DNA from: Planctomycetia bacterium
GTDB lineage: Bacteria; Planctomycetota; Phycisphaerae; Phycisphaerales; SM1A02
NCBI GenBank assembly: GCA_005792145.1
Contig: SXSS01000078.1
Coordinates: 1 to 46,403, forward strand
Direction: 5' to 3'
Length of the DNA stretch: 46,403 bases
Shown one piece after another: positions 25,862 through 41,670 of the stretch. The stretch's first letter is position 1. Each line of letters opens with the position of its first letter. The notes beneath the pieces were generated by a model. It searched no databases and had not been told where the DNA came from. It saw nothing but the letters and a program-made list of their open reading frames with translations. Both the position numbers and the translations under genes were made by a program.

Positions 25862-25922
25862 GGTGCGGGTCTCCGTTGGTGAAAGCGTTACTATAACTTG
25901 CCTGACCCTTCTAGGAATATCT
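25862..25922. promoter_or_regulatory. Divergent start region between protease and FG-GAP protein genes
   Basis: Only 61 bases lie between the two start codons. It contains TATAAC on the plus strand and TATAGT on the minus strand, overlapping in the CTATAAC block around 25890. It also contains the two ribosome binding sites: AGGA near 25913 for the plus gene and GGAG for the minus gene. Both promoters must overlap here or lie inside coding sequence. No clear -35 pair can be assigned. Confidence 0.3.
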
Positions 25923-28325
25923 ATGCGAAAAACTTTTTCATATTGTGCCCCTCTGCTCTTCGGATCCTCCCTCCTCTTGGCAACCGATATTGTCTCAGCG
26001 CAAACTCCCGCACCAGGTGGCAACCGAATTTCGGATCACTTTGGTTTCGATGGCGTTGATGTGATCAAGGTCGACAAAGGTGGAGGTCCACTTTCATCCG
26101 CCGATCTTGACGGGGATGGCAAGAGCGATCTCATAGCGATCAATAATCGCAACAGTCGAATCGACTTGCTTTATCAAAAGGCTGGCGCAAAGCCAACCGA
26201 TGAGGTTCCACCGACATCGAGCATCAACGAGATTCCCCAGCATTGGCGTTTTCGACGCGTTGAAGTTCCCGTCTCGGATGCAGTCGGAACAGTCCTGCCA
26301 TTCGATTTTGATGGTGACAAGCGAATGGATTTGATCTATTCAACTGCCACTGGAAAGATTGTCTTTATGCGTCAGTCATCCCCAGGGGTTTTTGAAGTGG
26401 TCCGAAAGCACTCGATCAAGAATCTCAATCCAAATCGTGACGCACTGATGATTATGAATCTCGTCGGTGACGACAAACCGGAACTTGTCGGAATCGCGAA
26501 TGGCCGCATTCAAGTTTGGACATTTACAGGTTCTGATTTAGGCACTCCTATTGAACTCGCTGCGGGAAATGGAAATGTCGTCGCGACGATCGCAGGCGAT
26601 CTTGACGGAGATGGTGCGAATGATCTTGTGGGAATAATGCCTGATGATGCAGCGCCTCTGAGAACATGGTTCGGGTCGAAGAAGAATGGAGTTGCTGCCC
26701 TCGGTGCGCAAACTCGCTTTGAAATGCCCCCAATTCGAGATGCAGACATTGTCCCACTTCAAGGTGAAAAAGGCGCGGCGCTCGCCGTGGTAGAAAAACC
26801 ATCTCGGCGTGTCGTTCTGATGAAGGTGGCGAATGAACCAATCACCGAAGGCGGTGATCGAGAGGCAAGTCTGCAGACTTGGGCATTCACTGATTCTGAC
26901 AATCGCAAGAGAGACACTGCAATTTCGGATATCAACGGTGACGGACTCCCCGATCTTATGGCGACGAACACCGAAGCGAACGCGGTCTCAATTTTTCAGC
27001 AAGTTCCTGGCCGTGGGTTTGTCGGAATGCAAAATTCACCAGCCTATAGCGATCTTGATTTCATCGTTGCGGGAGATATTGATGGCAACGGTAAGGCTGA
27101 AGTTTTTCTGAGCAGCGAAAAGGAGGGCGTGGTTGGACGAACTTCGTTCAGCAACGATGGACTCGATTTTCCTCAGACGATGCCGCTGACTGGCGGAAAT
27201 GTTCCGGTTGCGCTTGGGCTGGTCAATATTGATGGACGCAATTGGGTGGCGATCATCGGAAAAGATGGACGAAATTATTCCATTGAATTGCAACCCGCTG
27301 ATGGTTCAACGACAGGCAAAGTGTCGATTCCGCTGGGTGCACTCAGCCGCGCACCTGACACGATCCTCGCTCTCGATGCGGACCAAGATTCGCTGACCGA
27401 CCTTCTACTTTTCACTCCTGATAAGCCGATGACCATGCTTCGACACGAAACGCCGAAGGAAGGTGATGCGAAAGATGCTTCACCGACATTCAAGACTTTC
27501 GAAAGCAAAGATATGGCGCAATTTGGCTTGGCGCAGGCAGCGAATGCCCAGAACACCACCACAACTGACATCGACGGTGATGGCCGCCCAGAATTGCTCG
27601 TCGCCGATCGAAACTTTATTCGCGCACTTCGCTTTGATCCAAAACTCGGCTGGCAAGTTGTCGAACAGATCAATGCGCCTCGCGGCGACACAAAGTTCAG
27701 TTCGATCACTCGACAAGGTGACCGAATCGCAGCGGGTGACAGCGACAATGGGAAGGTCATTATCTTCACTCGCGATGCGATGGCGAAGAAGTGGAAGCAG
27801 GCTGATGAATTCGATGTGAAGGGATTCAAGTTCAACTCGATCGCTGCGGGCCCATTCACAGGTGGAAAAGATCAAGGATTACTGCTCGTTGGAAATGATG
27901 GCTTTGGCGTTATGCGATTCAGCGGAACGCGCGAGAAACTTGATGAACTCTCATCTTGGCGCACCGATGATCTTGGTCGTGTTCCTCACGAACTTGGCGT
28001 GGGCGATTTGAACCAAGACGGTATGACGGACATGGTTGTGCTTGATGCGGGCAAGCAGATGCTCGATGTCATTGGAATCAGTAAATCTCACACCCTGCTT
28101 CCCGCGATCAGTTTTCGTGTTTTCGAAAGCCGCCTCTTTTCTGGTGGAGAACCGCGAGAATTCGAACCAAGTCAAGCGATCATTCAGGATGTCAGCGGCG
28201 ATGGATCAAACGATCTGATCTTGATGTGTCACGATCGCATTTTGCTCTATCCCCAGATGACCAAGGCATCCGCTGCGGCTGCGGCGGCGGCAGCGCCCCC
28301 TGCGACATCAACGGACAAGAAATAA
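25923..28325 (+). CDS. Secreted FG-GAP/VCBS repeat protein
   Basis: The product has 800 residues with a signal peptide (SYCAPLLFGSSLLLATDIVSAQ). At least nine calcium-binding-like FG-GAP loops are readable: DLDGDGKSDLIAI, DFDGDKRMDLIYS, DLDGDGANDLVGI, DINGDGLPDLMAT, DIDGNGKAEVFLS, DADQDSLTDLLLF, DIDGDGRPELLVA, DLNQDGMTDMVVL and DVSGDGSNDLILM. They are spaced through the whole protein and should form one or more beta-propellers, probably outside the cytoplasm. The C-terminus is low complexity with a run of alanines. The ATG at 25923 has an AGGA element about 7 bases ahead, and longer frames upstream overlap the divergent protease gene. Likely roles are adhesion or polymer binding. Confidence 0.88.
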   Translation: MRKTFSYCAPLLFGSSLLLATDIVSAQTPAPGGNRISDHFGFDGVDVIKVDKGGGPLSSADLDGDGKSDLIAINNRNSRIDLLYQKAGAKPTDEVPPTSSINEIPQHWRFRRVEVPVSDAVGTVLPFDFDGDKRMDLIYSTATGKIVFMRQSSPGVFEVVRKHSIKNLNPNRDALMIMNLVGDDKPELVGIANGRIQVWTFTGSDLGTPIELAAGNGNVVATIAGDLDGDGANDLVGIMPDDAAPLRTWFGSKKNGVAALGAQTRFEMPPIRDADIVPLQGEKGAALAVVEKPSRRVVLMKVANEPITEGGDREASLQTWAFTDSDNRKRDTAISDINGDGLPDLMATNTEANAVSIFQQVPGRGFVGMQNSPAYSDLDFIVAGDIDGNGKAEVFLSSEKEGVVGRTSFSNDGLDFPQTMPLTGGNVPVALGLVNIDGRNWVAIIGKDGRNYSIELQPADGSTTGKVSIPLGALSRAPDTILALDADQDSLTDLLLFTPDKPMTMLRHETPKEGDAKDASPTFKTFESKDMAQFGLAQAANAQNTTTTDIDGDGRPELLVADRNFIRALRFDPKLGWQVVEQINAPRGDTKFSSITRQGDRIAAGDSDNGKVIIFTRDAMAKKWKQADEFDVKGFKFNSIAAGPFTGGKDQGLLLVGNDGFGVMRFSGTREKLDELSSWRTDDLGRVPHELGVGDLNQDGMTDMVVLDAGKQMLDVIGISKSHTLLPAISFRVFESRLFSGGEPREFEPSQAIIQDVSGDGSNDLILMCHDRILLYPQMTKASAAAAAAAAPPATSTDKK

Positions 28326-28337
28326 ACGAGAGCACTT

Positions 28338-29660
28338 GTGGCCCACAACCAAGAAAAAACGGCTGGCAAGGTTCATCATGTTGGTGCGCTGGAGAAATTG
28401 CTAGAAATCTCGAAGAGGCTTGGAGAATCCTCCGATTTGCCCGTTGTACTGGGAGTCATCATCGATGCATTGAGGGATCTTCTCGATGCAGATCGAGCGA
28501 CTGTTTTCACCTATGACGACAAAACAAATGAGCTTGTGATTCACATCGCACACGGCGTGGCTGGATCGAGCAGCGCTGAAATTCGTTTCTCCGCGACAGC
28601 TGGAATTGCAGGCGCGTGCGCGTCAAGTCGAGAAATCGTCAACATTCCAGACGCGTACGCCGATGATCGATTCAACCGAGATGTGGATAAGCGAACGGGA
28701 TATCGAACCAAATCGATCTTGGCGATTCCTCTTGTTGATCATGCTGGAGATCTGGTGGGAGTGGCGCAAGTGCTCAACGCGTCCAAAGGAGTTTTCGATC
28801 TTTCCGACGAACAACTTGGCTCTGGAATCGCATCGCAAGCTGGTATCGCTCTTCGGCGTGCTCATCTGATTCAAGATCACTTGGACAAAGTGAAGTTAGA
28901 AAAAGAAATGTCGGTCGCAAAGGAAATCCAAGAGAGTTGCTTTCCAAAGTTTTTACCGGCGCATCCTGCGTTTGATATTGCTGCATTCAGCACTCCAGCC
29001 GAAGAATGCGGAGGAGATGCATTCGATGTCTTTGGAATGCGAGAAGGAACCATTGCAAACTCCGATGAAGCTGCGGACAAAGTCTTTTTCTTTATTGGGG
29101 ACGCAACTGGTCACGGAGTTGGACCCGCGCTCTCATCGATGCAGACTCGTGGAATGCTTCGTGTTTCGGCGCGACTGGGGCAGAAGTTGGGACCAATCGC
29201 CCGCGAAATCAACACTCAATTGAGCGAAGATCTTCCTTCAGGACGCTTTGTGACTGGATGGCTTGGGATTCTTGATCTTGCAACTTCCAAAATCGAATGT
29301 TTCAGCGCAGGACAAGGACCGGTGTATGTCTATCGGCGCGAGAAAGATCACTTCGAAGAGATCGATAGCGATGCTCCTCCATTTGGAATCTTGATGCCAG
29401 GATTTTCTTATGACGAAACTACTCAAATCAAACTGGATGCTGGTGACATATTGATCTTGATCACCGATGGTTATTACGAGGCGATGTCGCCTGCGCAAAC
29501 ATTATGGAGCGAGCAAGGAGTCTTTGAAGTCATTCGCAGGATGAAGGACCAGTCTGCTGATGATATTCGCAAGGAACTCGATCGATGCTCGCTCCATTTC
29601 GCACAGGCAAAAGCCACCGACGATGATCGAACTGCGATCATTGTGAAGCGACTCTTCTAG
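28338..29660 (+). CDS. GAF domain plus SpoIIE/PP2C-type serine phosphatase (RsbU-like)
   Basis: The product has 440 residues with a GTG start. Residues about 18-175 form a GAF sensor domain: LLEISKRLGESSDLPVVLGVII, RATVFTYDDKTNELVIHIAHG, then AIPLVDHAGDLVGVAQVLN. A linking helix (KVKLEKEMSVAKEIQESCFP) leads into a SpoIIE/PP2C phosphatase with the metal aspartates in ECGGDAFDVF, FIGDATGHGVGPAL, LITDGYYEA and TDDDRTAIIVK. Such proteins dephosphorylate anti-sigma antagonists or other phosphoserine proteins in partner-switching systems. No RsbV/RsbW gene is visible here. The gene ends 3 bases from the tail of the CHASE2 cyclase gene on the other strand, and it directly follows the FG-GAP gene. 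Confidence 0.9.
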   Translation: MAHNQEKTAGKVHHVGALEKLLEISKRLGESSDLPVVLGVIIDALRDLLDADRATVFTYDDKTNELVIHIAHGVAGSSSAEIRFSATAGIAGACASSREIVNIPDAYADDRFNRDVDKRTGYRTKSILAIPLVDHAGDLVGVAQVLNASKGVFDLSDEQLGSGIASQAGIALRRAHLIQDHLDKVKLEKEMSVAKEIQESCFPKFLPAHPAFDIAAFSTPAEECGGDAFDVFGMREGTIANSDEAADKVFFFIGDATGHGVGPALSSMQTRGMLRVSARLGQKLGPIAREINTQLSEDLPSGRFVTGWLGILDLATSKIECFSAGQGPVYVYRREKDHFEEIDSDAPPFGILMPGFSYDETTQIKLDAGDILILITDGYYEAMSPAQTLWSEQGVFEVIRRMKDQSADDIRKELDRCSLHFAQAKATDDDRTAIIVKRLF

Positions 29661-29663
29661 GAT

Positions 29664-32342
29664 TTACTTCGCTCGAAGGCGCAAGACTCCATCGGAAATT
29701 TCTTCCCCTTCTCGAATCAATTCAATCGCTTCGAAATACATTTTCGAAACTTTCGATGCTCCGAAGTTTTTCTCGAATTCTTTCCATAACGCAGCGGATT
29801 CGTCAAGTTTCTGAGCCCGAAATAGCGCGACAGCATGTTCCGTTGCGGCGATCCACGAATCATCCGCTTCAAGTCCAACCACTTCGAAGATTTCGATGGG
29901 CTTTGATTGCCCAACGACGATGATTGCCCCAAGCGCTCGAATCTTGATCGAGGAATTCCCCCCCTGCGCGATGATCCCCCGATGCGTTGGACCGTCGATC
30001 AAGATGCCCGTGCCAAATTGTTTGTTCGCACTTTCAAGACGCGCGGAAAGATTTACAACATCACCAATGGCGGTGTAATCATTCAACTTTGGTGGTGCTC
30101 CGCAGTCGCCGACGACTGCCATTCCCGTTGCGATTCCAAGTCGCACTGAAATCTTTGGCGAACCGAATTCGGAATTGTGTCCTAACTCCTTCATCGCATC
30201 TTGACAGGCGACTGCGCTCTCGGCGGCACGCGATTCTTGCATTGGTTCGTCGCCGAATGCTGACCAGAAAGCCATAAATCCATCGCCCAAGAACTTATTG
30301 ACATAGGCATCTCGATTCACCAATTCATCGGACAGGCGGCCGAGATATAGATTGAGTGTGCGCACCACACCTGGACCACCAAGTTGTTCTGCGATCGTCG
30401 TGAATCCGGCAAGATCTCCAAACATCACAGTGATTTCTCGCTCTTGGCCGCCCATCGTCAACGCCCCAGGATTGTTTGCCAATCGTTCGACCAACTGTGG
30501 AGATACGCGCGCCGAAAACTGTCGTGTGATGCGCGCTCTATCTCTCGAAGACAAGACAGCAATTGCGGCAGTACCAAGCGCCCACGATGCGATCGGCGCG
30601 ATGACTGGACCAACAAGTGGCATAATTAGATGCAAATCATTGAATGCAAATCGACCCGCGGACCAAAGCCAAACTGCCACAAGAATGCATGCACCAAGCG
30701 CGCTCCAACCTGTCGCAAGTCGGCAAGCGCATAGCGAAGCCATTCCACCGAACAAGAAAATTGCAATCGGCTGTATCCAATCTGGCGCTGTATCACGCGA
30801 ATGATTGCTGAGCACCATATCCGCGACGACGGCATGAACAAAGACACCAGGAGTTTTGGGGTTGTACGAAGTGGGAATGAAATCTGCCAACGCACCAGTT
30901 GCGGTCCAACCGAGGAAGACCAATTTGTCGCTTAATTTATATCGCAGTTCGGCTGATTGTTTTGCAATATCGAGTGAACCTCGATCAACTTCCTCGGAAA
31001 GTTTCTGATACTCCTCGACAGCATCAGCGGCATTCGCAGGAATCGAATCATTCATTCTTGCATCGTCCAGAATCTCAGCGAATTCTTTGGCAGATTTTGC
31101 TGAAAATTCAGGCGTATTCCACTCCGCCACGAAACCAACAACTTTAACCCGCGTCTCATCACGACGTTTTTGGTTTATCTTCAGTATCTCACGGTCATCG
31201 CTGAGACCAATCAACCTTCCAATGGAAACTGCGGATCGCTCTTGGCCTTCCATACCACTCTGCGACCACTTCTTAAATTCACCATCGAAGGTTGAAGTCG
31301 GCCAGTCCAAGACCATAACTCCATTCTTCAATGGAATGATTGTCTCCCCTACTTGGAGCGAGTCATTGCTTCCAACAATTGCGCTCGACTTCAAGCCCAT
31401 GTGTGTCGCGGAAGACGCCAATCCAAGTTGATATGTACGCCCACTCGGGACATGCCATGTCGTTCCAGTTCGGCGCTTTGCGCCATCAACATCAGTAACA
31501 CTTTTCTCATTCGTCACCACGCCAAGACCAGAGGCTTTTTCGGCTAAGACTGCGATGGGAGGTTCATGCTCATGTCCACCGAGCAACGCTGGGTGTTCTG
31601 CATCGTGAACCATTTCTTCATGGAACTCGCGCCAACTCCGAGCCCGATCCCAAAGTTTCTCGATCAGGTTGCTCTCGGCAAGCATGCCAGAATTATTTCC
31701 ACCTTTCAACTTGAAAATCAAATCTTTTAGTGGCGGTATCGGGCCTTGCCCTGCACTCTTCCAAATGACTTTCCATGCCGCCAAACTCTTGAACCAAATT
31801 TGATTTTCGAGGAAAGAAACTCGACGATCTCCAGTCAATTTCGCTTCTTTCGCTGCGTCCTCCGGTTCTGCATCTATATGAGACGACAGGACATCGATGA
31901 TCGCTGCGAGTTCGATTTTCCCTTCTGGAGATTCCCATTCCACTCCCGGCGTGAACTTTCGACTGACATCCATTCCTAAAACTGTTCGCAGACCTGCCAT
32001 CGCATTCGCGAGAGAGACATCGCCGCCAACTTCGGCATCTGGCTCGCTCAACTGAAGATCGAGCGCCACCGTGCGGGCTCCAGCACGAGCAATTTCATCG
32101 ATCGCCGAAGCGAGTCTGCGCCGAGGCCACGGCCAACGCCCGAAGACGTTCAGCGAACTGTCGTCGATGATGACAAGCGCAATCTGATCAGACAACGGTT
32201 CTGCAACAGATCGGGCATGTTTGTAACGCCAATCAATAGAATCAAATTCCCAATTGTTCAGCACACCAAGCCACGCGAGCAGTGAAACGATGATCGTCGC
32301 ACTGAACCCAACTGCAAATGCAACCCATGAAAAACGCTTCAC
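29664..32342 (-). CDS. CHASE2-domain transmembrane adenylate cyclase (class III)
   Basis: This 892-residue inner-membrane sensor has an N-terminal membrane helix (residues 6-26). A CHASE2 extracytoplasmic domain follows (DSIDWRYKHARSVAEPLSDQIALVIIDDSSL, RWPWPRRRLASAIDEI, and LVFLGWTATGALADFIPTSYNPKTPGV near 475-500), with a long insert of about 180-450. Three further helices lie near 522-597. The cyclase domain covers about 635-815, with metal Asp643 and Asp687, adenine-selecting Lys683 and Asp755, and transition-state Asn764 and Arg768 (motifs FGDLAGFTTI, NKFLGDG, DYTAIGDVVNLSARLE). All catalytic residues are kept, and the pattern fits cAMP rather than cGMP. The GTG start at 32342 lies 54 bases after the FecR gene stop. 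It is the last gene of the four-gene cluster. Confidence 0.92.
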   Translation of the reverse strand: MKRFSWVAFAVGFSATIIVSLLAWLGVLNNWEFDSIDWRYKHARSVAEPLSDQIALVIIDDSSLNVFGRWPWPRRRLASAIDEIARAGARTVALDLQLSEPDAEVGGDVSLANAMAGLRTVLGMDVSRKFTPGVEWESPEGKIELAAIIDVLSSHIDAEPEDAAKEAKLTGDRRVSFLENQIWFKSLAAWKVIWKSAGQGPIPPLKDLIFKLKGGNNSGMLAESNLIEKLWDRARSWREFHEEMVHDAEHPALLGGHEHEPPIAVLAEKASGLGVVTNEKSVTDVDGAKRRTGTTWHVPSGRTYQLGLASSATHMGLKSSAIVGSNDSLQVGETIIPLKNGVMVLDWPTSTFDGEFKKWSQSGMEGQERSAVSIGRLIGLSDDREILKINQKRRDETRVKVVGFVAEWNTPEFSAKSAKEFAEILDDARMNDSIPANAADAVEEYQKLSEEVDRGSLDIAKQSAELRYKLSDKLVFLGWTATGALADFIPTSYNPKTPGVFVHAVVADMVLSNHSRDTAPDWIQPIAIFLFGGMASLCACRLATGWSALGACILVAVWLWSAGRFAFNDLHLIMPLVGPVIAPIASWALGTAAIAVLSSRDRARITRQFSARVSPQLVERLANNPGALTMGGQEREITVMFGDLAGFTTIAEQLGGPGVVRTLNLYLGRLSDELVNRDAYVNKFLGDGFMAFWSAFGDEPMQESRAAESAVACQDAMKELGHNSEFGSPKISVRLGIATGMAVVGDCGAPPKLNDYTAIGDVVNLSARLESANKQFGTGILIDGPTHRGIIAQGGNSSIKIRALGAIIVVGQSKPIEIFEVVGLEADDSWIAATEHAVALFRAQKLDESAALWKEFEKNFGASKVSKMYFEAIELIREGEEISDGVLRLRAK

Positions 32343-32396
32343 AGGTGCATTATGGATCGAGTTTCGAAAACACGCTCGACGAAAGGCTCACGATTA

Positions 32397-35300
32397 TCAA
32401 TTCGACGGCGGGATGGCTTGACCCGAACCACCGTTTGCAACAACAATTGCGTTTGTGGCATCTGTTCGAGCATTGGTGGCAGCTTGTATCGCTTGATCGG
32501 CAAAGATTCGAGCTTGATCCGCTCGTGCGACCGTATCCGCCGCAATTTCCGCAGTTCGAGTGAAGAAAACTCGTTCGCCCATGCTTCGTGCCGATTCCGC
32601 GGCAGCAAGTGCGGCATCTCTTGAGGCCAACGCGCCCGAGCGTTGGACAATGGCTTGGTCACGAGCAGCAAGTGCAAAGTCTCTTGCAATATTCGCTTGA
32701 GCAGAACCAATTGCCGCCGCGAAATTGGTTGCCGCCTGCGAAAACGCCAACGCTTGCGCGGCGGAATTGGTTGCGCCGGCGCTTGCCGTTCCTCCGACTG
32801 CCGCGAATGCATTTGCTTGATCCAAAGCATTCGAATAATCACTACCAGCTTGCTGCGAGATAGCAGCCTGCAGCAACGCCTCATTTGCGTATCCCCGCGT
32901 TTCGATGGCCGATGAGTCCGATGCACTCGCCGAGAACTCGCTTTGGGTGGCACTTGCATCCGCATTGGATGCGTTGGTGAAATCCTGATAGGTCGTCGCA
33001 AGGAAAAAAGTATGAGCGTCGTTGGAAAAGTCCACAGCTAAATTTCTTTGGTTTTGGGTTTCTGTCAGCGAAACTCCCGCAGAAGCAAAGAGCGATGAAA
33101 CCGTTGTGAGAGCCTCGTTATGAACACCAATCGCTTGTGAGGCTGTATCGCGAGCAAAGATCGTATTGCCAAGGGCAACATCCGCATCAACTCGGAATGC
33201 AAAGGCATCGGCGCTTGCTAAGAATGCGCCAGCAGAACTTTGCGCAAGATTTGCATAGTTTTCTGCGTTATCGGCAAAAAATTGTGCTTCGCTCGCAGCT
33301 GTAATTGCATCCGAGGCAAACTGATTCGCTTGCCCAGCAAGGTTGGTCGATTGTTGGAATGATGCTTGCTGGATCGCCGAACTTCCCATCGCAATTTGAT
33401 AGAGCGCAGTTTCGCGCGCAGCAATTGCCGCAGAAGCACGGTCGAGGGCCAATACGCTGAGAGCAAGAGCACGATCAGCAAGTGCTTGAGCAATACCCGA
33501 CCCAGCGAGAGTCGCTGCGTCTTGGGAAAATCCAGCGGAAACTTGGCTGTCTTCTGCTCGCTGTTGGGCAAGATCAGTGTTCAGATTGATATCTGGTAAC
33601 AGTCCTGTTGCCGCATCAAGAGCACTTTGTGCAAGCTGTGCTTGTGTTTGCGAAGTGGTTGCAAATGCAACTGCAGCGTTTCTTTGATCATCTGCATCGT
33701 CGCGAGCAGATTTAGCAGCTTCGGCTGAATCAATTGCAAATCCAGCTTGTTCGCTGGCAGTCTGCGAAAAAGATATCGCCAAAGTTGCGTCTCCAGAACC
33801 CATCGCTTGAAGCATCTGCGCGAACGAATCAAACACATTTGTATCTTGCAACATCGCTTCAGTTCGTCCGGCTTGCGCAGAAGCGAGCGCTTCCAAAGCA
33901 CCATCTCTTGCGCCTTGGACACCTTCGAGTGCCCCTTCGTGGACTGTAATCGCACTGTTGATCTGATCGGCATAGCCTGCAACTGAAACTCCTTGGAACT
34001 CGACATTCGTAGCGGCAGAATCCGTTTCAATCTTGTTGACAAGAGTTTGGATCGCTTCTGTGGCGGCGTTGGATTCGGCTGACCCAAGAACATAAGATCC
34101 TTGCACGGATTCCAATGCTTGCAACGCTCTCTGCGCATTTGCGAGGGCAACCTGTCGAGCATTGATTACAGCTTGAAAATCTGTGACTGAAATGAGATTC
34201 GCAAGGTTTGAAGAAACGTCGGTCGCCTCAGTTGCGATTTCGTTGGCATCATCAGCAGCAATTGCTGCAAGCAATGCGAGATTCGATGCAGCGTTGGCAA
34301 CAGCGCCAACCATCGCGGATTGAAGGGAGCCACCGTTAATTGCTGCGTAGGCAAACTGATGAGAGAGGTCAGCCATTGTTGCAGCGTCGTCTGCATATGA
34401 TGCGCCTTCTTGAGCAACAATTGCAACTTGTTGGCTTAGGTCACTTACAGATTGAGCATCTGATGCGATGCCATCTTCTAGGCTTTGAGTTGCATCAATT
34501 GCGCCTTGCCAACCATAATGTGTCGCCGTCGAAGTTGCAGATGAACTTGCTTCAGTCGCACCTAAAAGGACATTATTTGCTTGAACGCCAAGCGCTTCCC
34601 AGCCGTTGGTGATCTCATTTGCCCCGTCAATATCCTCGTTGTTCAGTGCAACAAGAAGCGTATCCAAATTCAGATGAAGTTCTTCAAGCAAGCCTTCGAT
34701 ATTGATGACCGCTGTTTCACCTGCAACTGCAGCGCTTTGTGTTGTTTCAACTCTCTGCTCAGCTTGATCTACGAAGTTTTGTACTTGTTCCAACATCCCA
34801 CTTGCGTGTGTTGCTTTCTCCGAGAGGTTCACGAATAGATTTTGACTATTCGTCAATGTAATTTGCGCTCCAATCAATCCATCCAAAGTGCCTACTGCCG
34901 TCTCCGCTGTCGCCGCCTCAGCATCAGCAACTGCAGCGAGCCGCGCAGCTTCGATTGCCGCATCATTTGCTTCACCTGCATTGGTCGCAGCAAGGTCCGC
35001 CGACGCACTTGTTGAACTGAAGTCCAACGATTCACCCTCTTCGTCAGTGACATCTGCGAGTGCAGAAGCAGCATCATCACGCGCATCTGCAGCGGTTTGT
35101 GCATACTCCCCAGCATCGGCCGCCAAAGTCAACGCCCTTTCGACAGCCAAGAGCGCAGCTTGAGCAGCGTCGGAGCCCGAGAATTGTGAAGCGAATGCGT
35201 TGCCAGCAGTTTGCGCTGCTCCCGCTGCATCACTTGAACCAACTGCGGCACTTGCGCTTTCTGCTGCACTTGCAACCGCATTTGCGAGTGCAACTCGAAT

Positions 35301-37556
35301 CGCTTCCAATCGATCGGCATAAGATTCAAAGGCATCTTCAGAAACGGAAACTTGGCTTTCAGCAACATTTGAAGCATCATTCGCAGATTCTGCAGAATCA
35401 TTCGCATTTTCCGCGTTATCAAGAGTGTCATTTGCAAATCCGCGTGCTGCAAGTGCGGCATCTTCTGCTTCTGCTTGATTCTGTGCCTCAAGCGCAGCGA
35501 AGCAAGCAGCAACGGCGTCAGTCGTGAAGCCACTGTTTGCGATCGCACTATCAAGATGTCCAAGCGCTTCCACAAGCGCCTGAGCAGCATCCAACTGAGC
35601 ATCATTTGCAACAATTGCAGCATCACTATGAATTTCGATCTGGGCCTGTGCCTCATCACGGCGCGCTTGAGCAATATCTCGAAATGCCTGCGCTGCTTCA
35701 CTTGTTGATAGCGCAACACTCGCTTCATCCCGCGCATTCAGCATCGCATCAATCGCAAGATCCAACTTGCCCATTCCAGTTTGCGCGTCAATCGCGGCGG
35801 CATCGGCTGCGCTTGATGCAGTAAACGCAGCAAGTGCATCTTGCGCCGCAGCAAGTGCCGCTGCCTGTGCCGCTTCGAGCACCGTGTTTTGAGCATCCGC
35901 TTGTGCTGCAAGTGCTGCAGTCAATGCAACGTCGCGAGCATTTTCAGCCAACAGCACTGCCTGCGATGACAATTCCAAACGCAGCAACGCAGCGTTGAGA
36001 CTTGCTTCGATTCCAGATAGCGGACGACGAGCATAAATTGTGGCGATCTCATCGCGTGCAATCTTGACCAAAGCGAGAAATTCACGCGCAGAAGCGGCGG
36101 CAGCCGAACCTTCCAAAGCTGCAGAATCTGCTCGATTCGCTGCACTCTGTGAATTGCTCTTCGATGCGAATGCTTCATCCAATCTTTCTAGCGCGCTCTC
36201 GCTGAAATCAACAACGAGCGAGGATCCAGACAACGCGTCATCGGCAGCCAATCTTGCGCGGTCGGCTTCATCGATCGCTGCATCTGCAAGTTGACGAATT
36301 TCATTTCCTTCGCCGCCTTGGCCGTATTGGCTGAGAAGACCTCCTTGACCAGACTCATCGCCAACAACTTGCATAGCAAACATTTCAAGCGATTGCCTTG
36401 CATTTTCCAACGCGGAAGATCGAGCCTCTCCAGATTCTGTGAGTGCCTCGTTTACCAATACAAGCTGTTGCGCAACCGACTCTGCCGCCTCTGCAACATC
36501 ATCACGAGCATCTCGAGCGGCCTGCGCATGAAACTGGGCATTGACCAACTCAGTTTGCGCTTTAGCAAGCGCAACAATTGCAAGTTGTAGTTGTGCGCCG
36601 GCACCTTGTGAGGCGAGAGTTGCTCTATTTAGGGAATCATCCGCGTGCCGTATATCAGCGAAAATTGCTCCAGCACTGTTTCCATTTTCTGCTGCATCTC
36701 CACCTCCCGTCGCTTCAACGACGGCTTGAGAAACCGTTGTAACCATTGCACCATTTTGCACTTGCACTGGTGTTTGAGTTGTTCCCATCGAAGCAGAAGA
36801 TGCATGCTCAGCTGCGCTCGTGGCAGTTCCAACCATCGGAAGAGCACCAATCGAACTCATCAGCGCGCTTGAAGCAGGCTCTGGAGATGAGGAGGAACTT
36901 TTAGAATCTCCGCCTCCGGACATCTGTACAACCTGATTTGTTGCCGCATATTTCAGTTGAATTGCGGCGATTGCATTGGTTCGAGCACCAGCAACTTCGG
37001 TTCCAGTCATGGCGCCAGTCGTCACGCTGAAACCAGTACCTCGAACGGCGAGTGTTGAGCTTGGTGTCACGACTTTAAAATCATTTTTTGCGCCGACTTT
37101 ATCGACTTGAAAATCGCCGCGTCCAGATTTCATTTGAGCAACCGTGCGATAAACGTCGCCATCGCTTTCTTTAACAAGTTCCGAGGTTGGCATGGCGAAA
37201 TTCGAATTGCTATCGATTAAAATTGTTGCGTTGTCAAATTTCAAAGTCATTCGAGATCGCAATCCAGTGCGAACTTCAGCACCCGCTGAAAGCAAATCGT
37301 TGATTGCTGCATCCTTTGCATCTTTCCACGCGATGTCGGACCCCGTTCTCCATCGCACTTTTCCAACGCAATCAATCACTTTCGCTTGTAATGGCAAAGA
37401 AGCCGTTGCAGGAGTATTTGCAGGAACTTTGGAATCCTGACGTGGCACAATTGTGCTGACCAACGGTGTCTCTGGACTTGCTGCTTCGGCGACAAGAACG
37501 GTCAAAGACAAAAACACACCAGATGCTGTAGAGATGAAAGAATATTTTGATTTCAT
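32397..37556 (-). CDS. Giant FecR-domain protein with alanine-rich helical repeat region
   Basis: The product has 1719 residues. A signal peptide (SGVFLSLTVLVAEAA) is followed by a FecR-type domain at about 54-179. It contains GKVRWRTGSDIAW, AEVRTGLRSRMTLKFDNATILID, GRGDFQVDKV and VTPSSTLAVRGTGFSV. FecR domains of this VRGT type occur in periplasmic proteins near CHASE2 sensors. From about residue 300 to the end the protein is almost entirely alanine-rich helix, around 40 percent Ala in sampled stretches. Alanines recur every 3-4 residues, as in DNAENANDSAESAND. An (A)RD-x-A motif returns many times, for example NARDEA, ADARDDA, GARDGA, SARDDA, LAARDQA. This suggests a very long coiled coil. 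The ATG at 37556 has a strong AAGGAAG site; a GTG at 37598 also overlaps the lipoprotein stop. Confidence 0.85.
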   Translation of the reverse strand: MKSKYSFISTASGVFLSLTVLVAEAASPETPLVSTIVPRQDSKVPANTPATASLPLQAKVIDCVGKVRWRTGSDIAWKDAKDAAINDLLSAGAEVRTGLRSRMTLKFDNATILIDSNSNFAMPTSELVKESDGDVYRTVAQMKSGRGDFQVDKVGAKNDFKVVTPSSTLAVRGTGFSVTTGAMTGTEVAGARTNAIAAIQLKYAATNQVVQMSGGGDSKSSSSSPEPASSALMSSIGALPMVGTATSAAEHASSASMGTTQTPVQVQNGAMVTTVSQAVVEATGGGDAAENGNSAGAIFADIRHADDSLNRATLASQGAGAQLQLAIVALAKAQTELVNAQFHAQAARDARDDVAEAAESVAQQLVLVNEALTESGEARSSALENARQSLEMFAMQVVGDESGQGGLLSQYGQGGEGNEIRQLADAAIDEADRARLAADDALSGSSLVVDFSESALERLDEAFASKSNSQSAANRADSAALEGSAAAASAREFLALVKIARDEIATIYARRPLSGIEASLNAALLRLELSSQAVLLAENARDVALTAALAAQADAQNTVLEAAQAAALAAAQDALAAFTASSAADAAAIDAQTGMGKLDLAIDAMLNARDEASVALSTSEAAQAFRDIAQARRDEAQAQIEIHSDAAIVANDAQLDAAQALVEALGHLDSAIANSGFTTDAVAACFAALEAQNQAEAEDAALAARGFANDTLDNAENANDSAESANDASNVAESQVSVSEDAFESYADRLEAIRVALANAVASAAESASAAVGSSDAAGAAQTAGNAFASQFSGSDAAQAALLAVERALTLAADAGEYAQTAADARDDAASALADVTDEEGESLDFSSTSASADLAATNAGEANDAAIEAARLAAVADAEAATAETAVGTLDGLIGAQITLTNSQNLFVNLSEKATHASGMLEQVQNFVDQAEQRVETTQSAAVAGETAVINIEGLLEELHLNLDTLLVALNNEDIDGANEITNGWEALGVQANNVLLGATEASSSATSTATHYGWQGAIDATQSLEDGIASDAQSVSDLSQQVAIVAQEGASYADDAATMADLSHQFAYAAINGGSLQSAMVGAVANAASNLALLAAIAADDANEIATEATDVSSNLANLISVTDFQAVINARQVALANAQRALQALESVQGSYVLGSAESNAATEAIQTLVNKIETDSAATNVEFQGVSVAGYADQINSAITVHEGALEGVQGARDGALEALASAQAGRTEAMLQDTNVFDSFAQMLQAMGSGDATLAISFSQTASEQAGFAIDSAEAAKSARDDADDQRNAAVAFATTSQTQAQLAQSALDAATGLLPDINLNTDLAQQRAEDSQVSAGFSQDAATLAGSGIAQALADRALALSVLALDRASAAIAARETALYQIAMGSSAIQQASFQQSTNLAGQANQFASDAITAASEAQFFADNAENYANLAQSSAGAFLASADAFAFRVDADVALGNTIFARDTASQAIGVHNEALTTVSSLFASAGVSLTETQNQRNLAVDFSNDAHTFFLATTYQDFTNASNADASATQSEFSASASDSSAIETRGYANEALLQAAISQQAGSDYSNALDQANAFAAVGGTASAGATNSAAQALAFSQAATNFAAAIGSAQANIARDFALAARDQAIVQRSGALASRDAALAAAESARSMGERVFFTRTAEIAADTVARADQARIFADQAIQAATNARTDATNAIVVANGGSGQAIPPSN

Positions 37557-37564
37557 TTGGTTGG

Positions 37565-37571
37565 CTTCCTT
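37565..37571 (-). promoter_or_regulatory. Ribosome binding site deciding the start of the giant FecR protein
   Basis: AAGGAAG on the minus strand lies 8 bases before the ATG at 37556. The alternative GTG at 37598, which overlaps the upstream stop as GTGA, has no such site and would put 14 charged residues before the signal peptide. The ATG is therefore preferred. Confidence 0.6.
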
Positions 37572-37594
37572 ACGTCCAAATCGAACCTCAATGT

Positions 37595-38212
37595 TCACTC
37601 GAACCGCCCCGTTGGGGGCAGCGGCTTTGTTGTCGGTTCTTGACTCGTTGCCTGTGCAGGCAGTTTCTCAAGGACCGAACCGCTACTTAAATTTGTCATT
37701 CGGCTGAGACGAGTCAAATAATCGACAAACTCGAGTCCAGAAAAACTCTGCGTTTCCTTCTTTCCGATCAAAATTTGCATATGTGTGAGCTCGCGAACAG
37801 CATATCGAGGTATTGGTCCTATAACCTGCATAGATAGACCACCACGAATTTTGGTGATCCTGCACGAGGCAGATGCCACCCACCCAACCTCCGCGCTTTC
37901 GTTTGCGGGTTCATCAAATGAAGAAGACAACCACTTACGGCGCTTCGCTTCAGCAACTCTCTCGTCATATGTTGCCCAGCCATCATCTTTATCCGCTAGC
38001 AGAAAAAATGAATGAAGTGCATCGTTATTGCTGACCACTTGACTTTTTTCGAGGTCTTCAAAGAATTCGATTTCAGCTTGGTTGGTGTCAAATTTTTCGA
38101 CCGACGAAGTGGTCATTGTTGCGCGCTCGCAACCAGCGATTGAAAATACAAGTACGAACAATGCAGCGAACTGGGGAACTTTTGTTTGCAAAACGAAAAA
38201 ATTAAAACGCAT
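37595..38212 (-). CDS. Lipoprotein of unknown function in the FecR-cyclase cluster
   Basis: This 205-residue protein has a lipoprotein signal peptide. VPQFAALFVLVFSIAGC gives a lipobox ending at Cys28, so the mature protein should be anchored to a membrane facing the periplasm. The next residue is Glu, not Asp, which fits sorting to the outer membrane under the rule known from Enterobacteria. The mature part is about 175 residues with a single extra Cys (SCRITKI), a short beta-like core (VGWVASASCRITKIRGGLSMQVIG), and a Pro/Thr-rich C-terminal end. I recognise no family. The ATG at 38212 overlaps the barrel gene stop by 11 bases, and the stop touches the next gene. It is likely a structural or linker piece of the same envelope assembly. 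Confidence 0.75.
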   Translation of the reverse strand: MRFNFFVLQTKVPQFAALFVLVFSIAGCERATMTTSSVEKFDTNQAEIEFFEDLEKSQVVSNNDALHSFFLLADKDDGWATYDERVAEAKRRKWLSSSFDEPANESAEVGWVASASCRITKIRGGLSMQVIGPIPRYAVRELTHMQILIGKKETQSFSGLEFVDYLTRLSRMTNLSSGSVLEKLPAQATSQEPTTKPLPPTGRFE

Positions 38213-39755
38213 AGGTCATCCCTGCATACACGAAATCTCGTGCCCCGCCTTGATTGGTTGGAAAGACTTCCGTGTTTGGCATAAAGATTCCATATCGAAT
38301 ATTCAGATCAAGATCGCTCATCAATCTCCACTCCATACTGAAATCCAGTTCGCTCCCGACATAGTTCGATCCACCATTCACAGTTTGAAATGAAAGTGGC
38401 GCATCGTTTTCGATCCGACCGAACGCAAATGCGGTTACACCCAAACGCAGACCGCCGAAAAATCCGCTTCCTGGAAGCGGAGTTGTGCTGAATCCAAGTG
38501 AAGGACAAAACAAATTGGCCAAGTCTGGGGCTAACACTATTCCGGTGTTGACATACCCCAATGAGTTGAAAGATGTGTCCACCGCCCGAGGCGCGATCCC
38601 ACCAAATGTATTTCCTGGATCCAAGCGTTGGTTCGATCCCGAACCTGCGACGATCTGAAAATCAACGCGAGAATCTTCAGTGTTTCGTGCGAGCCAAGTC
38701 AATCCACCCACTCCAGCCATCGCAGAAATCCGAGCGTCCTGTTGTGAAACCGGTAGGATTCCACCCTGATGCGAAAGCGGATCCGAAAGTGTCGTTCCAT
38801 ACTCGTACATGAACTCCGCGCGATAGACCAAATCCGCGCCAATTGCGCCGTTGCTGCCAACACCTACATAGGTTGAGTTGTAATCAAAGGTGGTGGGAAT
38901 CGTCGGTGCCGAGAGCGGTAAGACCGCAAGTTGTCCGCTATTGAGATCATTCTGAGCAAGGATGTAGACATATGGACGATGGCCTGGAATGCCGCTGTAC
39001 TCAAACTTGCCGCCGTAGTAAAGGCGACTGGTATCGGTGTCATACCCAGGGCGCGACAAATCCCAATCAATCGTGTCCTCGCCAGCAGTCTGACCAACCA
39101 TTGTGGTCAATTTGAATTCTTGCCAAGAAAAATCGAAGATTCCGGCATACATATAATTGCTTAGCGCAGCACCTTGACCCCATATCACATATTGCCGCCC
39201 CATCTTTGCGACGAAGTTGTAATCCGGCTTCGCCCCAGTCTGAGTTTGAATCATTCCAGCCAAATTAAATTCATACCAATACAACTCGCCGATTGGGTTC
39301 TGCAATCCTTCGTCGTTGTATTCGGGACCAACGGCACGGGTGCCATTGAAATCCCATTGGTTATAGAGAAAACGGAGGCGACCGTAGAAACGATGTGCTC
39401 CATCGAGTTCGATGGAGGTAAAGAGTCGAAGGTCATACACCTGCTCGTACGTTTCTTTACTTTGTGCTGTGTCGATAATGTTGAAGGCGTATCGAAATGT
39501 CCCTCCGTAATCGATCGTCAATCGCTCGGAGATCGGCGAATTGGAAAAGTATGCCTTGCGCATTGACGCGTCCTCGGCGTTCAACTGTTGCTGCATATTC
39601 TCGGCGGATTGACTTGCCGTATTGCGCTGTGGGAAAGCAGATGAGGAGTTGGAATTGAACAATATTCCAGCCACGAAGATGCTAAAGATCAGTTGTCGCA
39701 GCAGTGCAATCGACACGAATGCCTCTTTAGAATTTGACCACTTGACTCCATTCAT
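38202..39755 (-). CDS. Outer-membrane beta-barrel protein, alginate-export-like
   Basis: This 517-residue protein has an N-terminal signal peptide (LLRQLIFSIFVAGILFNSNSSSA). After it comes a Gln/Ser/Asn-rich linker and a series of amphipathic strands with aromatic girdles, for example FRYAFNIIDTA, HRFYGRLRFLYNQWDF and YFGGKFEYSG-type repeats. The motif MGRQYVIWGQGAAL matches the GRQ...WG element of alginate-export-type (AlgE-like) barrels, and the chain ends in YAF, the usual outer-membrane C-terminal Phe. A single barrel of about 16-18 strands is likely. The ATG at 39755 has a TTGAGAG element about 7 bases ahead and is preferred over a TTG at 39770. It is the first gene of the FecR-cyclase cluster. 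Confidence 0.78.
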   Translation of the reverse strand: MNGVKWSNSKEAFVSIALLRQLIFSIFVAGILFNSNSSSAFPQRNTASQSAENMQQQLNAEDASMRKAYFSNSPISERLTIDYGGTFRYAFNIIDTAQSKETYEQVYDLRLFTSIELDGAHRFYGRLRFLYNQWDFNGTRAVGPEYNDEGLQNPIGELYWYEFNLAGMIQTQTGAKPDYNFVAKMGRQYVIWGQGAALSNYMYAGIFDFSWQEFKLTTMVGQTAGEDTIDWDLSRPGYDTDTSRLYYGGKFEYSGIPGHRPYVYILAQNDLNSGQLAVLPLSAPTIPTTFDYNSTYVGVGSNGAIGADLVYRAEFMYEYGTTLSDPLSHQGGILPVSQQDARISAMAGVGGLTWLARNTEDSRVDFQIVAGSGSNQRLDPGNTFGGIAPRAVDTSFNSLGYVNTGIVLAPDLANLFCPSLGFSTTPLPGSGFFGGLRLGVTAFAFGRIENDAPLSFQTVNGGSNYVGSELDFSMEWRLMSDLDLNIRYGIFMPNTEVFPTNQGGARDFVYAGMTYAF

Positions 39756-39776
39756 CACACTCTCAAGCAAGTGTGA
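39755..39776. promoter_or_regulatory. Inverted repeat in the divergent start region, candidate operator
   Basis: TCACACT at 39755-39761 and AGTGTGA at 39770-39776 are perfect 7-base inverted repeats separated by 8 bases. They lie in the 35-base gap between the start codons of the barrel gene (minus) and the MBL hydrolase (plus), partly over the barrel ATG. The half-sites contain TCACA and TGTGA but point outward, opposite to the classical CRP site. The element could bind a dimeric regulator, or it may be chance. Confidence 0.35.
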
Positions 39777-39790
39777 CTATTCTATCAGAG

Positions 39791-40540
39791 ATGCCGATTC
39801 GCGCAGTCATTATTGGAACTGGAAGCGCTATCTCTGAAAGCAACTATGGCTCGAGTGCCGCAGTCATCACCACAAATGGTTTAGTGCTGGTCGATTGTCC
39901 AGATTCCATTCTGCGAGCGATGAAAGATGCATCGAAAAAGAGCGGTGTTGAACTCGACCCAATGAAAATCACCGACATTTTGATAACTCACCTTCACGGG
40001 GATCATGTGAATGGACTGGAAACTCTCGGATGGAAACGGTGGATCGCACGACAAAGTGGAAATGGAATCCAACCGAGAATTCATGCGATCGAGTCCGTCG
40101 CAAGCAGAATTTGGGAGCGGCTTGCCCCTGCCATGGACCAAAATGGAACCGCCCAACTCTGCGATTATTTTTCTCTCAACATTCTTGTTCCTGGAGTTGC
40201 GGTTTCAATCGCAGAGCTTCAAGTGGAAGCTCGATCTTCAGAACATCTCATTCCTTGTTGTGGATTTCGCATCTCGTTCGATGGCGCAACACTAGGTTGG
40301 AGCGGGGACACACGATTCGATCCATCGCATATCGATTGGCTCTCATCTTCAGATGTGATTGTTCATGAGACATCCGAGTCCCGAGTTCATACTCCAATCG
40401 CTTGCCTCAACGCTCTCGCGCCGGAATTGCGCCGCAAGATGCGGCTGATTCATATGGAAGACAACTTTGATCAGGCCGTGACCGACATCGTGCCTTTGAC
40501 CGAAGGCGAAGTGCTCGAAGTCGTTGGCTTGGACCGTTGA
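39791..40540 (+). CDS. MBL-fold metallohydrolase, RNase Z-like
   Basis: This 249-residue protein has the metallo-beta-lactamase fold. THLHGDHVNGLE (His67, His69, Asp71, His72) is the Zn-binding HxHxDH motif. SEHLIPCCGFRI carries the next His, GWSGDTRFD the bridging Asp, and the later VHETSE and LIHMED segments carry further ligand histidines. The start MPIRAVIIGTGSAISESNYGSSA resembles the RNase Z/arylsulfatase-like group. It may process nucleic acid ends or hydrolyse esters; the substrate is not evident. The ATG at 39791 is preferred over a GTG at 39773. The 3' end overlaps the citrate synthase gene on the opposite strand by 70 bases. Confidence 0.85.
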   Translation: MPIRAVIIGTGSAISESNYGSSAAVITTNGLVLVDCPDSILRAMKDASKKSGVELDPMKITDILITHLHGDHVNGLETLGWKRWIARQSGNGIQPRIHAIESVASRIWERLAPAMDQNGTAQLCDYFSLNILVPGVAVSIAELQVEARSSEHLIPCCGFRISFDGATLGWSGDTRFDPSHIDWLSSSDVIVHETSESRVHTPIACLNALAPELRRKMRLIHMEDNFDQAVTDIVPLTEGEVLEVVGLDR

Positions 40541-41670
40541 TCAACCGGCAGATAAACCAAACCGTGAGGACCGGTGTAATCCGCATGCGGACGAATCAAT
40601 TTATTCGCAGCCAATTGTTCGATGCAGTGTCCAGTCCAACCGGACATTCGACTTGCTGCGAACATACAGGTGAAAAGATCAAGGTCGAGACCGAGCGAGT
40701 AGTACGTCGTCGCGGAATAAAAATCGACGTTGGGGAAGATCCCCTTCTCGATGATGTTCGGTTGCGCAAGGACAATTTCCTCGATGCGCCGAGTCATTTC
40801 ATACAGCGGCAGATTTCCAGTGTCTGATGCGACTTGCTTGGCGAATGTCTTGAGATATGTCGCACGAGGGTCATATGCTTTATAGACACGGTGGCCGAAT
40901 CCCATGATTCGCTCTTTGCGGGCTAGTTTGCTCTTGATGTACTCGTCCACTTTTTCCAGTTGGCCGATTTCCAAAAGCATCTCCATCACTTCTTGATTCG
41001 CTCCTCCGTGCAGCGGACCCTTGAGAGTTCCAACAGCGCTCGTTGCCGCGGAATACATATCACTTTGAGTGGCGATCGTGACACGAGCGGCGAATGTCGA
41101 AGCGTTCAATCCGTGATCTGCGTGCAGAACCAAACAAACATCGAGCGCGCGACTCATTGCGGCGGTTGGCAGAGCGCCAGTCAGCATCCACAGGAAATTT
41201 TGCGCGAGTGTCAAAGTTGAATCTGGCGAAACAATCGGCTTGCCCTTGCGATAACGATTGAAATTTGCAATCAACGTTGGAGTCTTGGCGACAAGACGAA
41301 GCGCTTTGCGTTGATTTGCCGCTGGAGATGGATCATCAGCCTCGAAATCAAAGTGCGCAAGCGCAGAGACAAGTGTCCTCAGCGCATCCATCGGAGCCGC
41401 GGTGCGCGGAATCGCGCGAATGACATCCATCATCCGAGGATCGATGTCATACTCACCTTGGAGTTGCTTTGAGAAGTCTGCAAGTTCGCGTGCGAGTGGA
41501 AGGCGACCATTCCAAAGCAACCAAGTTGTCTCCTCGAATGTCGAATTGCGTGCAAGGGAATCGATGTCGAAACCGACATATTCCAAAACGCCCTTCGCGC
41601 CGTCAATGAATGACAATTGCGTGTCCGCCGCGATCGTATTTCCTAGACCTTTGTCAACATTGAGTGTCAT
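40471..41670 (-). CDS. gltA: Citrate synthase
   Basis: This 399-residue enzyme condenses acetyl-CoA and oxaloacetate at the entry to the TCA cycle. Motifs include DHGLNASTFAARV, GPLHGGANQEVMEML (substrate-binding His), IMGFGHRVYKAYDPRA (catalytic His) and NVDFYSATTYYSLGL (catalytic Asp). Then come FAASRMSGWTGHCIEQ and the family's usual end ADYTGPHGLVYLPVDQR. After that end there are about 20 additional residues (SKPTTSSTSPSVKGTMSVTA), which are exactly the part overlapping the opposite MBL gene. The ATG at 41670 has an AGGA element about 10 bases ahead. The start is 24 bases from the start of the rhomboid gene on the other strand. Confidence 0.96.
   Translation of the reverse strand: MTLNVDKGLGNTIAADTQLSFIDGAKGVLEYVGFDIDSLARNSTFEETTWLLWNGRLPLARELADFSKQLQGEYDIDPRMMDVIRAIPRTAAPMDALRTLVSALAHFDFEADDPSPAANQRKALRLVAKTPTLIANFNRYRKGKPIVSPDSTLTLAQNFLWMLTGALPTAAMSRALDVCLVLHADHGLNASTFAARVTIATQSDMYSAATSAVGTLKGPLHGGANQEVMEMLLEIGQLEKVDEYIKSKLARKERIMGFGHRVYKAYDPRATYLKTFAKQVASDTGNLPLYEMTRRIEEIVLAQPNIIEKGIFPNVDFYSATTYYSLGLDLDLFTCMFAASRMSGWTGHCIEQLAANKLIRPHADYTGPHGLVYLPVDQRSKPTTSSTSPSVKGTMSVTA

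Follow-up and report, generated by a model that had tools for sequence, protein, structure and literature searches.

A putative trans-envelope cyclic AMP signalling cluster of planctomycetes: an AlgE-like barrel, a lipoprotein, a FecR-domain protein and a CHASE2 cyclase

INTRODUCTION

In Sinorhizobium meliloti, the outer-membrane barrel protein NsrA is required for the synthesis of cyclic AMP (cAMP) by the CHASE2 cyclases CyaD1, CyaD2 and CyaK (PMC13001267, PMC7529298), in a system that also includes Clr; the barrel of NsrA lies at residues 600–1200 (PMC7529298). Clusters from the Campylobacterota combine a CHASE2 cyclase with a FecR outer-membrane protein and a cAMP phosphodiesterase (PMC9239204). 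Similarly, in the Burkholderiales BiofilmReg operon, a periplasmic FecR protein is encoded beside a CHASE2 receptor, in many cases with a small DUF4136 protein, and what CHASE2 domains recognise was called unknown in 2016 (PMC5192318). Here, we analyse four consecutive open reading frames (ORFs) on the minus strand of a planctomycete contig, at positions 29664–39755, which read as a barrel, a lipoprotein, a FecR protein and a CHASE2 cyclase. The contig, SXSS01000078.1 of assembly GCA_005792145.1 (Planctomycetia bacterium; GTDB lineage Planctomycetota, Phycisphaerae, Phycisphaerales, SM1A02), is 46,403 nucleotides long and is hereafter called the window; it is one (C26) of the 152 contigs that make up a genome of 2.5 Mb, 90% complete.

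We consider it likely that the four genes work as a single unit, a receptor reaching across the envelope that controls how much cAMP is made; in favour of this are the conserved neighbourhood, the loss as a block, the overlapping or closely spaced frames and the S. meliloti precedent. As far as the open-licence literature that we searched shows, the four-gene cluster is undescribed; its novelty lies in the split architecture, the lipoprotein with a predicted SLH-like fold and the wide conservation. The author of an initial annotation of this DNA knew of FecR-like domains near CHASE2 proteins but of no described system in which a barrel, a lipoprotein and a giant Ala-rich protein are added: the general kind has in fact been published, for Sinorhizobium and the Campylobacterota, and it is the exact four-gene set that was not found in the literature. 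The gene set, its conservation, the loss of the block at its locus, the catalytic residues and the predicted folds were all computed.

RESULTS AND DISCUSSION

Gene layout and relation to described systems

The ORF coordinates bear out the proposal that the four minus-strand genes overlap or nearly touch (Table 1). The barrel frame starts with ATG, has an in-frame TTG at 39770, ends in TYAF and overlaps the lipoprotein frame by 11 bases. In turn, the lipoprotein stop overlaps the GTG of the FecR frame, for which a likelier ATG (37556) lies 42 bases on, giving a protein of 1733 residues from the GTG or 1719 from the ATG; a gap of 54 bases then separates the FecR and cyclase genes. The proposal of one protein for each envelope layer is likewise supported, with putative cellular locations.

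On pSymB of S. meliloti Rm41, the gene for a 1216-residue FecR-TPR protein touches that of a CHASE2 cyclase, and the C-terminal half of this protein gives a sub-threshold barrel match in Pfam (E = 0.077); its length and the layout suggest that it is NsrA, with the barrel in that half. The window has in common with this kind of system a CHASE2 cyclase that keeps its catalytic residues and is encoded beside a FecR protein. In S. meliloti, however, FecR, TPR and probable barrel form a single polypeptide, whereas the planctomycete FecR and barrel proteins are separate, the barrel is of the AlgE type and a lipoprotein is added. Because FecR and barrel are on separate genes, we have not filed the window set as an NsrA protein. 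A profile comparison of the window barrel with the Sinorhizobium C-terminal part gave no signal (hhalign probability 0.1, one sequence compared). By analogy, the planctomycete set looks like the S. meliloti logic cut into separate proteins, with the lipoprotein added and a different barrel. The Campylobacterota clusters differ in that FecR and the outer-membrane part are one protein and a TPR protein is the fourth gene, the available passages mentioning no lipoprotein (PMC9239204), and the BiofilmReg operon in having a LysM-FecR protein, a histidine kinase and a response regulator, with neither barrel nor cyclase in the excerpted description (PMC5192318).

Conservation of the gene neighbourhood

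The initial annotation had made a conserved gene order the test of its proposal, and such an order is found. A CHASE2 match is present in 36 of 61 genomes, the window's own included; 36 stretches plus the window make up a CHASE2-anchored set of 37 (the weak matches in G037, G046 and G058 were left out), of which 27 contain the complete set of families, in a shared order and on a single strand apart from an inverted cyclase in one (L056). The other ten comprise three at contig edges (L038, L043 and L044), one with CHASE2 alone (L035) and six whose CHASE2 proteins are more distant (L059, L061 and L063–L066). A second set, anchored on the barrel, consists of 78 loci from one scan of the genome contigs, some of them the same places as CHASE2-anchored ones and with close relatives counted singly. 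The lipoprotein follows the barrel in all 74 loci with at least 0.7 kb downstream, FecR is near it in 67 of the 69 with at least 1.8 kb and CHASE2 in 48 of the 49 with at least 9 kb, the one lacking it being L141, which its length and coordinates identify as the G026 contig. CHASE2 was seen in 10 of the 29 shorter stretches, where absence says little, and it precedes FecR in three of the barrel-anchored loci. The barrel relatives are labelled as planctomycete groups, many of them Phycisphaerales, besides several labelled 'uncultured bacterium' and two with odd labels.

Of 392 planctomycete genomes, 42 have the lipoprotein (E ≤ 1e-3) and 42 the barrel (E ≤ 1e-10); 41 have both and 43 have either, an observed overlap of 41 genomes against 4.5 expected with shared ancestry disregarded. 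CHASE2 (E ≤ 1e-4) is present in 40 of the 41 genomes with barrel and lipoprotein vs 149 of the 392 overall. Directly downstream of the barrel match, and on the same strand, the lipoprotein is found for 46 of 49 matches; two of the remaining three are partial matches on separate contigs. A distant set of 20 further lipoprotein loci, mostly from other families of the phylum, has barrel, lipoprotein and FecR together in 17.

Some genomes depart from a single, regularly ordered copy: G044 has three barrel–lipoprotein copies and G056 two barrels, the set is rearranged in L187, with the FecR genes ahead of the barrel, and on contig C45 of G368 a lipoprotein match lies beside a CHASE2 gene on the opposite strand, with no barrel match.

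Table 1. Coordinates and supporting evidence for the four-gene block and the genes on either side of it
Feature	Position	Strand	Evidence
Outer-membrane barrel, AlgE-like, 18 predicted strands, N-terminal helix	38202..39755	-	Pfam Alginate_exp, AF2, Foldseek
Lipoprotein, lipobox IAGC, predicted SLH-like helical fold	37595..38212	-	Invariant Cys, AF2, VIA
Exported FecR-domain protein, ~1500-residue Ala-rich heptad tail	32397..37598	-	PF04773, heptad periodicity
CHASE2 receptor with class III adenylate cyclase domain, 892 residues	29664..32342	-	PF05226, PF00211
Flanking MBL-fold hydrolase, Apyc1-like, candidate cyclic nucleotide phosphodiesterase (putative link)	39773..40540	+	PF23023
Flanking GAF-SpoIIE phosphatase (PP2C), candidate cAMP receiver (putative link)	28338..29660	+	PF07228 + GAF

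Loss of the block

In G001, G015 and G018, which belong to the same genus as the window, the flanking gene for PP2C directly adjoins that for MBL; their outer neighbours are unchanged, and the four genes are absent between them. Barrel and CHASE2 are missing from these genomes as a whole, and lipoprotein and FecR from the locus, where alone they were looked for. In G018, a scar of the cyclase persists: 52 residues of its end, at 52% identity (E = 5e-8). A tree built from the flanking genes places G018 as the sister of G005, a genome that has kept the block, and groups G001 with G015, which indicates at least two losses. Three further candidates for absence, G002, G003 and G006, were rejected, as pieces of the block lie at contig ends (in G006, one 15-residue piece, E = 0.11), and G007 and G010 are uninformative. 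The joint retention and joint loss of the four genes point to a possible relay through which the cell interior would be informed of the condition of its outer envelope.

The CHASE2 cyclase

The window cyclase matches CHASE2 (PF05226; E = 1.2e-31) and Guanylate_cyc (PF00211; E = 3e-13), and its best matches in the PDB are adenylate cyclases, the first being a phytochrome fusion. The initial annotation described the adenylate cyclase as intact: the six catalytic residues of class III cyclases that were checked are all present in the window protein. Among 53 barrel-anchored relatives that match the cyclase over at least 500 residues, three of these positions are identical in 53/53 and the other three in 52/53, with one gap; in ten more distant cyclase matches, crude patterns for the motifs were found in 3, 7 and 7. 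The CHASE2 match extends over residues 16–534 (window 30741–32297) for a Pfam model of 257 positions, so the domain carries ~265 extra residues; these could provide a contact for FecR. Among the PADLOC models, those for PycC show similarity to the cyclase domain (best E = 1.4e-24), probably of the general class III kind; the other four proteins scanned gave no match to any model.

The barrel and the lipoprotein

With 30.8 bits against a cut-off of 25.2 (E = 1.7e-7), the window barrel matches the Pfam family Alginate_exp (PF13372), as do 47 of 51 aligned barrel members at E ≤ 0.001. Its AlphaFold2 (AF2) model, with a mean predicted local distance difference test (pLDDT) score of 89.7, has 18 strands, and the best Foldseek match is AlgE (PDB code: 8q2o; E = 1.7e-18, TM score 0.67). 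The passing of the Pfam cut-off, together with this predicted fold, which the window barrel shares with AlgE, argues for membership of the AlgE family. A search for relatives of the barrel on plasmids gave two short matches (E = 0.6).

The lipobox cysteine is invariant in the 26 aligned lipoprotein rows; 62 of 74 relatives fit a simple lipobox pattern, and the ten non-matching sequences listed all still have a cysteine at that place. The AF2 model of the lipoprotein (pLDDT 89.5) is helical. In VIA, its best match is SpaA-SLH (Z 11.5 over 127 residues, 3.0 Å): rows 1–13 are all SLH (Z 9.8–11.5), row 14 is an S-layer cytochrome (6.9) and unrelated entries then follow (3.7), with the proviso that in helical models a Z below ~13 may reflect a common arrangement. 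None of these rows names a TPR or AlgK-like chain, although that is no proof against one. The best Foldseek match, again SLH, has an E value of only 0.022, and at the level of sequence the window lipoprotein has no Pfam match, 0 of 57 lipoprotein members match the SLH Pfam model at E ≤ 1, and the lipoprotein profile finds none of the PDB sequences at E ≤ 1. The gap in the VIA list and the fold itself thus point to a predicted SLH-like fold; it resembles SLH domains in this respect and differs in having no SLH sequence match, hence the protein is named SLH-like, not SLH.

In alginate secretion, AlgE is partnered by an outer-membrane lipoprotein, AlgK. Barrel and lipoprotein might, by this precedent, be an AlgE/AlgK-like pair for the export or uptake of polysaccharide, regulated by the FecR-CHASE2 cyclase of the operon, with the barrel as cargo rather than sensor. 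The AlgE-like character of the barrel, by Pfam and predicted fold, is in keeping with such a role, as is the occurrence of barrel, lipoprotein and FecR together in some distant loci that have no CHASE2 beside them. In contrast to AlgE systems, however, no alginate enzyme, nor any other polysaccharide enzyme, is encoded among the four flanking proteins scanned around the window block, the neighbours vary between lineages and the lipoprotein model is SLH-like. On balance, we regard a polysaccharide transport pair as unlikely.

The FecR protein and its tail

The FecR domain (PF04773) occupies residues 96–188 of the window protein (E = 7.1e-7), and from residue 231 onwards the tail contains 25.7% Ala. 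Its heptad signal is a lag-7 identity of 0.189 vs 0.112 expected, and one run of 808 residues is free of proline. The eight proteins scanned at 25863–41670 include neither a FecI sigma factor nor a TonB-dependent receptor beside FecR, and extracytoplasmic function (ECF) regulation of the FecI-FecR-FecA type was, accordingly, set aside.

The initial annotation held that the long helical protein spans or scaffolds the periplasm, that is, that the giant FecR protein is the essential transmitter across this compartment. The heptad-rich and almost proline-free tail would suit such a role, as would the lengths of the complete FecR frames in the window's genus (this and the following lengths being stop to stop), seven of eight having 1725–1764 residues and the eighth 1484. 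Over the barrel-anchored loci, however, the frames range from 257 to 2092 residues, some being cut by contig ends, and in 41 of the 71 loci with such a frame it has fewer than 600, as against more than 1200 in 17 of the 71. Moreover, an α-helix rises by 0.15 nm per residue, from which the ~1500 helical residues would measure ~225 nm end to end, far beyond the usual periplasm and far too long for a simple span. The presence of short FecR forms in the same gene set sets back the spanning-helix mechanism, which we consider very improbable. Rather, because the gene set also occurs with short FecR frames, the tail is an elaboration: the Ala-rich coil is a lineage-specific extension, not an essential transmitter. 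In the CHASE2-anchored set, only members of the family of the window (f1) have frames of more than 1200 residues; such frames are also present in L153 and L157 of the barrel-anchored set. Some clusters (L052, L055 and L170) carry two or three FecR genes.

The flanking genes

Upstream of the barrel, the MBL protein passes the PF23023 cut-off (53.7 bits against 50), and its best PDB match is Apyc1 (7u2r/7u2s). The HxHxDH motif and seven further residues are invariant in 40/40 sequences, the metal ligands included. The protein is also near RNase Z models and falls below every NCBIfam cut-off listed, including that of the equivalog NF041851 (43.1 bits against 400). Apyc1 and its relatives hydrolyse cyclic mononucleotides including cAMP (PMC9117128), and the MBL protein is a candidate cAMP off-switch. 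It adjoins the barrel in 36 of 64 testable loci, and does so with no citrate synthase near in 15 of the 61 loci that have 3.5 kb of upstream sequence.

On the other side, the GAF part of the PP2C phosphatase finds its best PDB match in the adenylate cyclase 1ykd (E = 1.8e-34), the cAMP-binding CyaB2. Of NKFDE, the motif of cyclic-nucleotide-binding GAF domains, 23 sequences keep N in 23/23, F in 23/23, D in 19/23, E in 20/23 and K in 6/23, the window having A for K. This phosphatase adjoins the cyclase in 18 of 43 testable loci, and in 4 of those 18 it is on the cyclase strand; it may be a cAMP receiver. A large FG-GAP repeat protein, encoded at 25722–28325, adjoins the PP2C gene in many members of the genus, block-less ones included.

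The six genes, i.e. PP2C, the four-gene block and MBL, could together make up a full cAMP circuit, with a sensor, a cyclase, a GAF-phosphatase receiver and an MBL phosphodiesterase. The nearest structures just given, 1ykd and Apyc1, fit this scheme, as do the MBL genes that stand beside the barrel with no citrate synthase, the PP2C genes on the cyclase strand and the phosphodiesterase reported for the Campylobacterota clusters (PMC9239204). Furthermore, in six cluster genomes (G002, G004, G014, G016, G019 and G022) a single class III cyclase is found without any cNMP_binding domain (E ≤ 1e-6), so a non-Crp receiver is plausible there, and four of the six have PP2C next to the cyclase. Against the scheme, eight genomes of the genus, the window's included, carry a cNMP_binding domain, the K of NKFDE is seldom kept, the MBL protein is also near RNase Z, and MBL and PP2C persist as a pair where the block is missing. 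The two genes are side by side without it in L197, L198, L199 and L200, and also in another genus (G027). That they remain after the block is lost set back their status as obligate parts, and we therefore keep both as candidates only; the six-gene circuit is, in our view, a tentative possibility.

A proposed relay and the evidence that bears on it

Returning to the four genes as one receptor, a mechanism can be proposed for which we infer the locations, the contacts, the direction of signalling, the ligand and the roles of the flanking genes. The barrel would sit in the outer membrane. The lipoprotein would be anchored on the inner face of this membrane, where its SLH-like domain may grip peptidoglycan or the barrel. 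The periplasmic FecR protein would pass the state of barrel and lipoprotein to the periplasmic CHASE2 domain, through which the output of cAMP by the inner-membrane cyclase would be raised or lowered. It is the analogy with NsrA of S. meliloti that leads us to cast the outer pair in the role of sensor, with FecR passing the message on and CHASE2 receiving it.

A number of observations weigh against such a unit. The co-occurrence figures and probabilities ignore shared ancestry, and co-expression might instead explain the conserved order; the barrel might be no more than a porin, and the protein–protein contacts between the four parts are putative. In G026, the CHASE2 gene (L035) is on a different contig from the other three genes; L153 has no CHASE2 over the 3.2 kb past its FecR frame, and L168 and L172, the two exceptions counted above, are without a FecR match. 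Only 10 of the 20 distant loci have CHASE2; five more end too soon to tell, and L179, L184, L188, L189 and L191 have none nearby despite at least 8 kb to spare, the CHASE2 genes of these genomes lying elsewhere. The window genome itself encodes a second class III cyclase besides that of the block, and one cNMP_binding protein, which means that the block locus is not necessarily its sole source of cAMP. Finally, MBL and PP2C persist without the block, in G015, G018 and G027 even where no class III cyclase is detected (E ≤ 1e-6). Because five distant loci with room have no CHASE2 nearby, the bond of CHASE2 to the set, tight near the window, is looser far off; the firmest pair is barrel and lipoprotein, with FecR next. 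The CHASE2-less distant loci, with lipoprotein and barrel and/or FecR, possibly represent an older core without the cyclase.

The most far-reaching form of the proposal would be a dedicated and complete planctomycete cAMP pathway: barrel and lipoprotein would monitor how the outer membrane is tied to the cell wall, FecR would serve as a rod of interchangeable length that relays to the CHASE2 cyclase, the GAF-SpoIIE phosphatase would read cAMP where no Crp-type protein is found and the Apyc1-like hydrolase would reset the system. Taken as a whole, this is improbable, and we offer it as speculation.

The cluster bears on a general question, the route by which a signal travels from the outer membrane to an inner-membrane CHASE2 receptor. 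With FecR and barrel separate, and a fixed lipoprotein partner, the steps of such a route are separable gene by gene, and the natural variants in the length of the FecR rod, from 257 to about 2000 residues, are a ready series on the importance of length. For the planctomycetes, the four genes constitute a widespread candidate pathway of envelope signalling.

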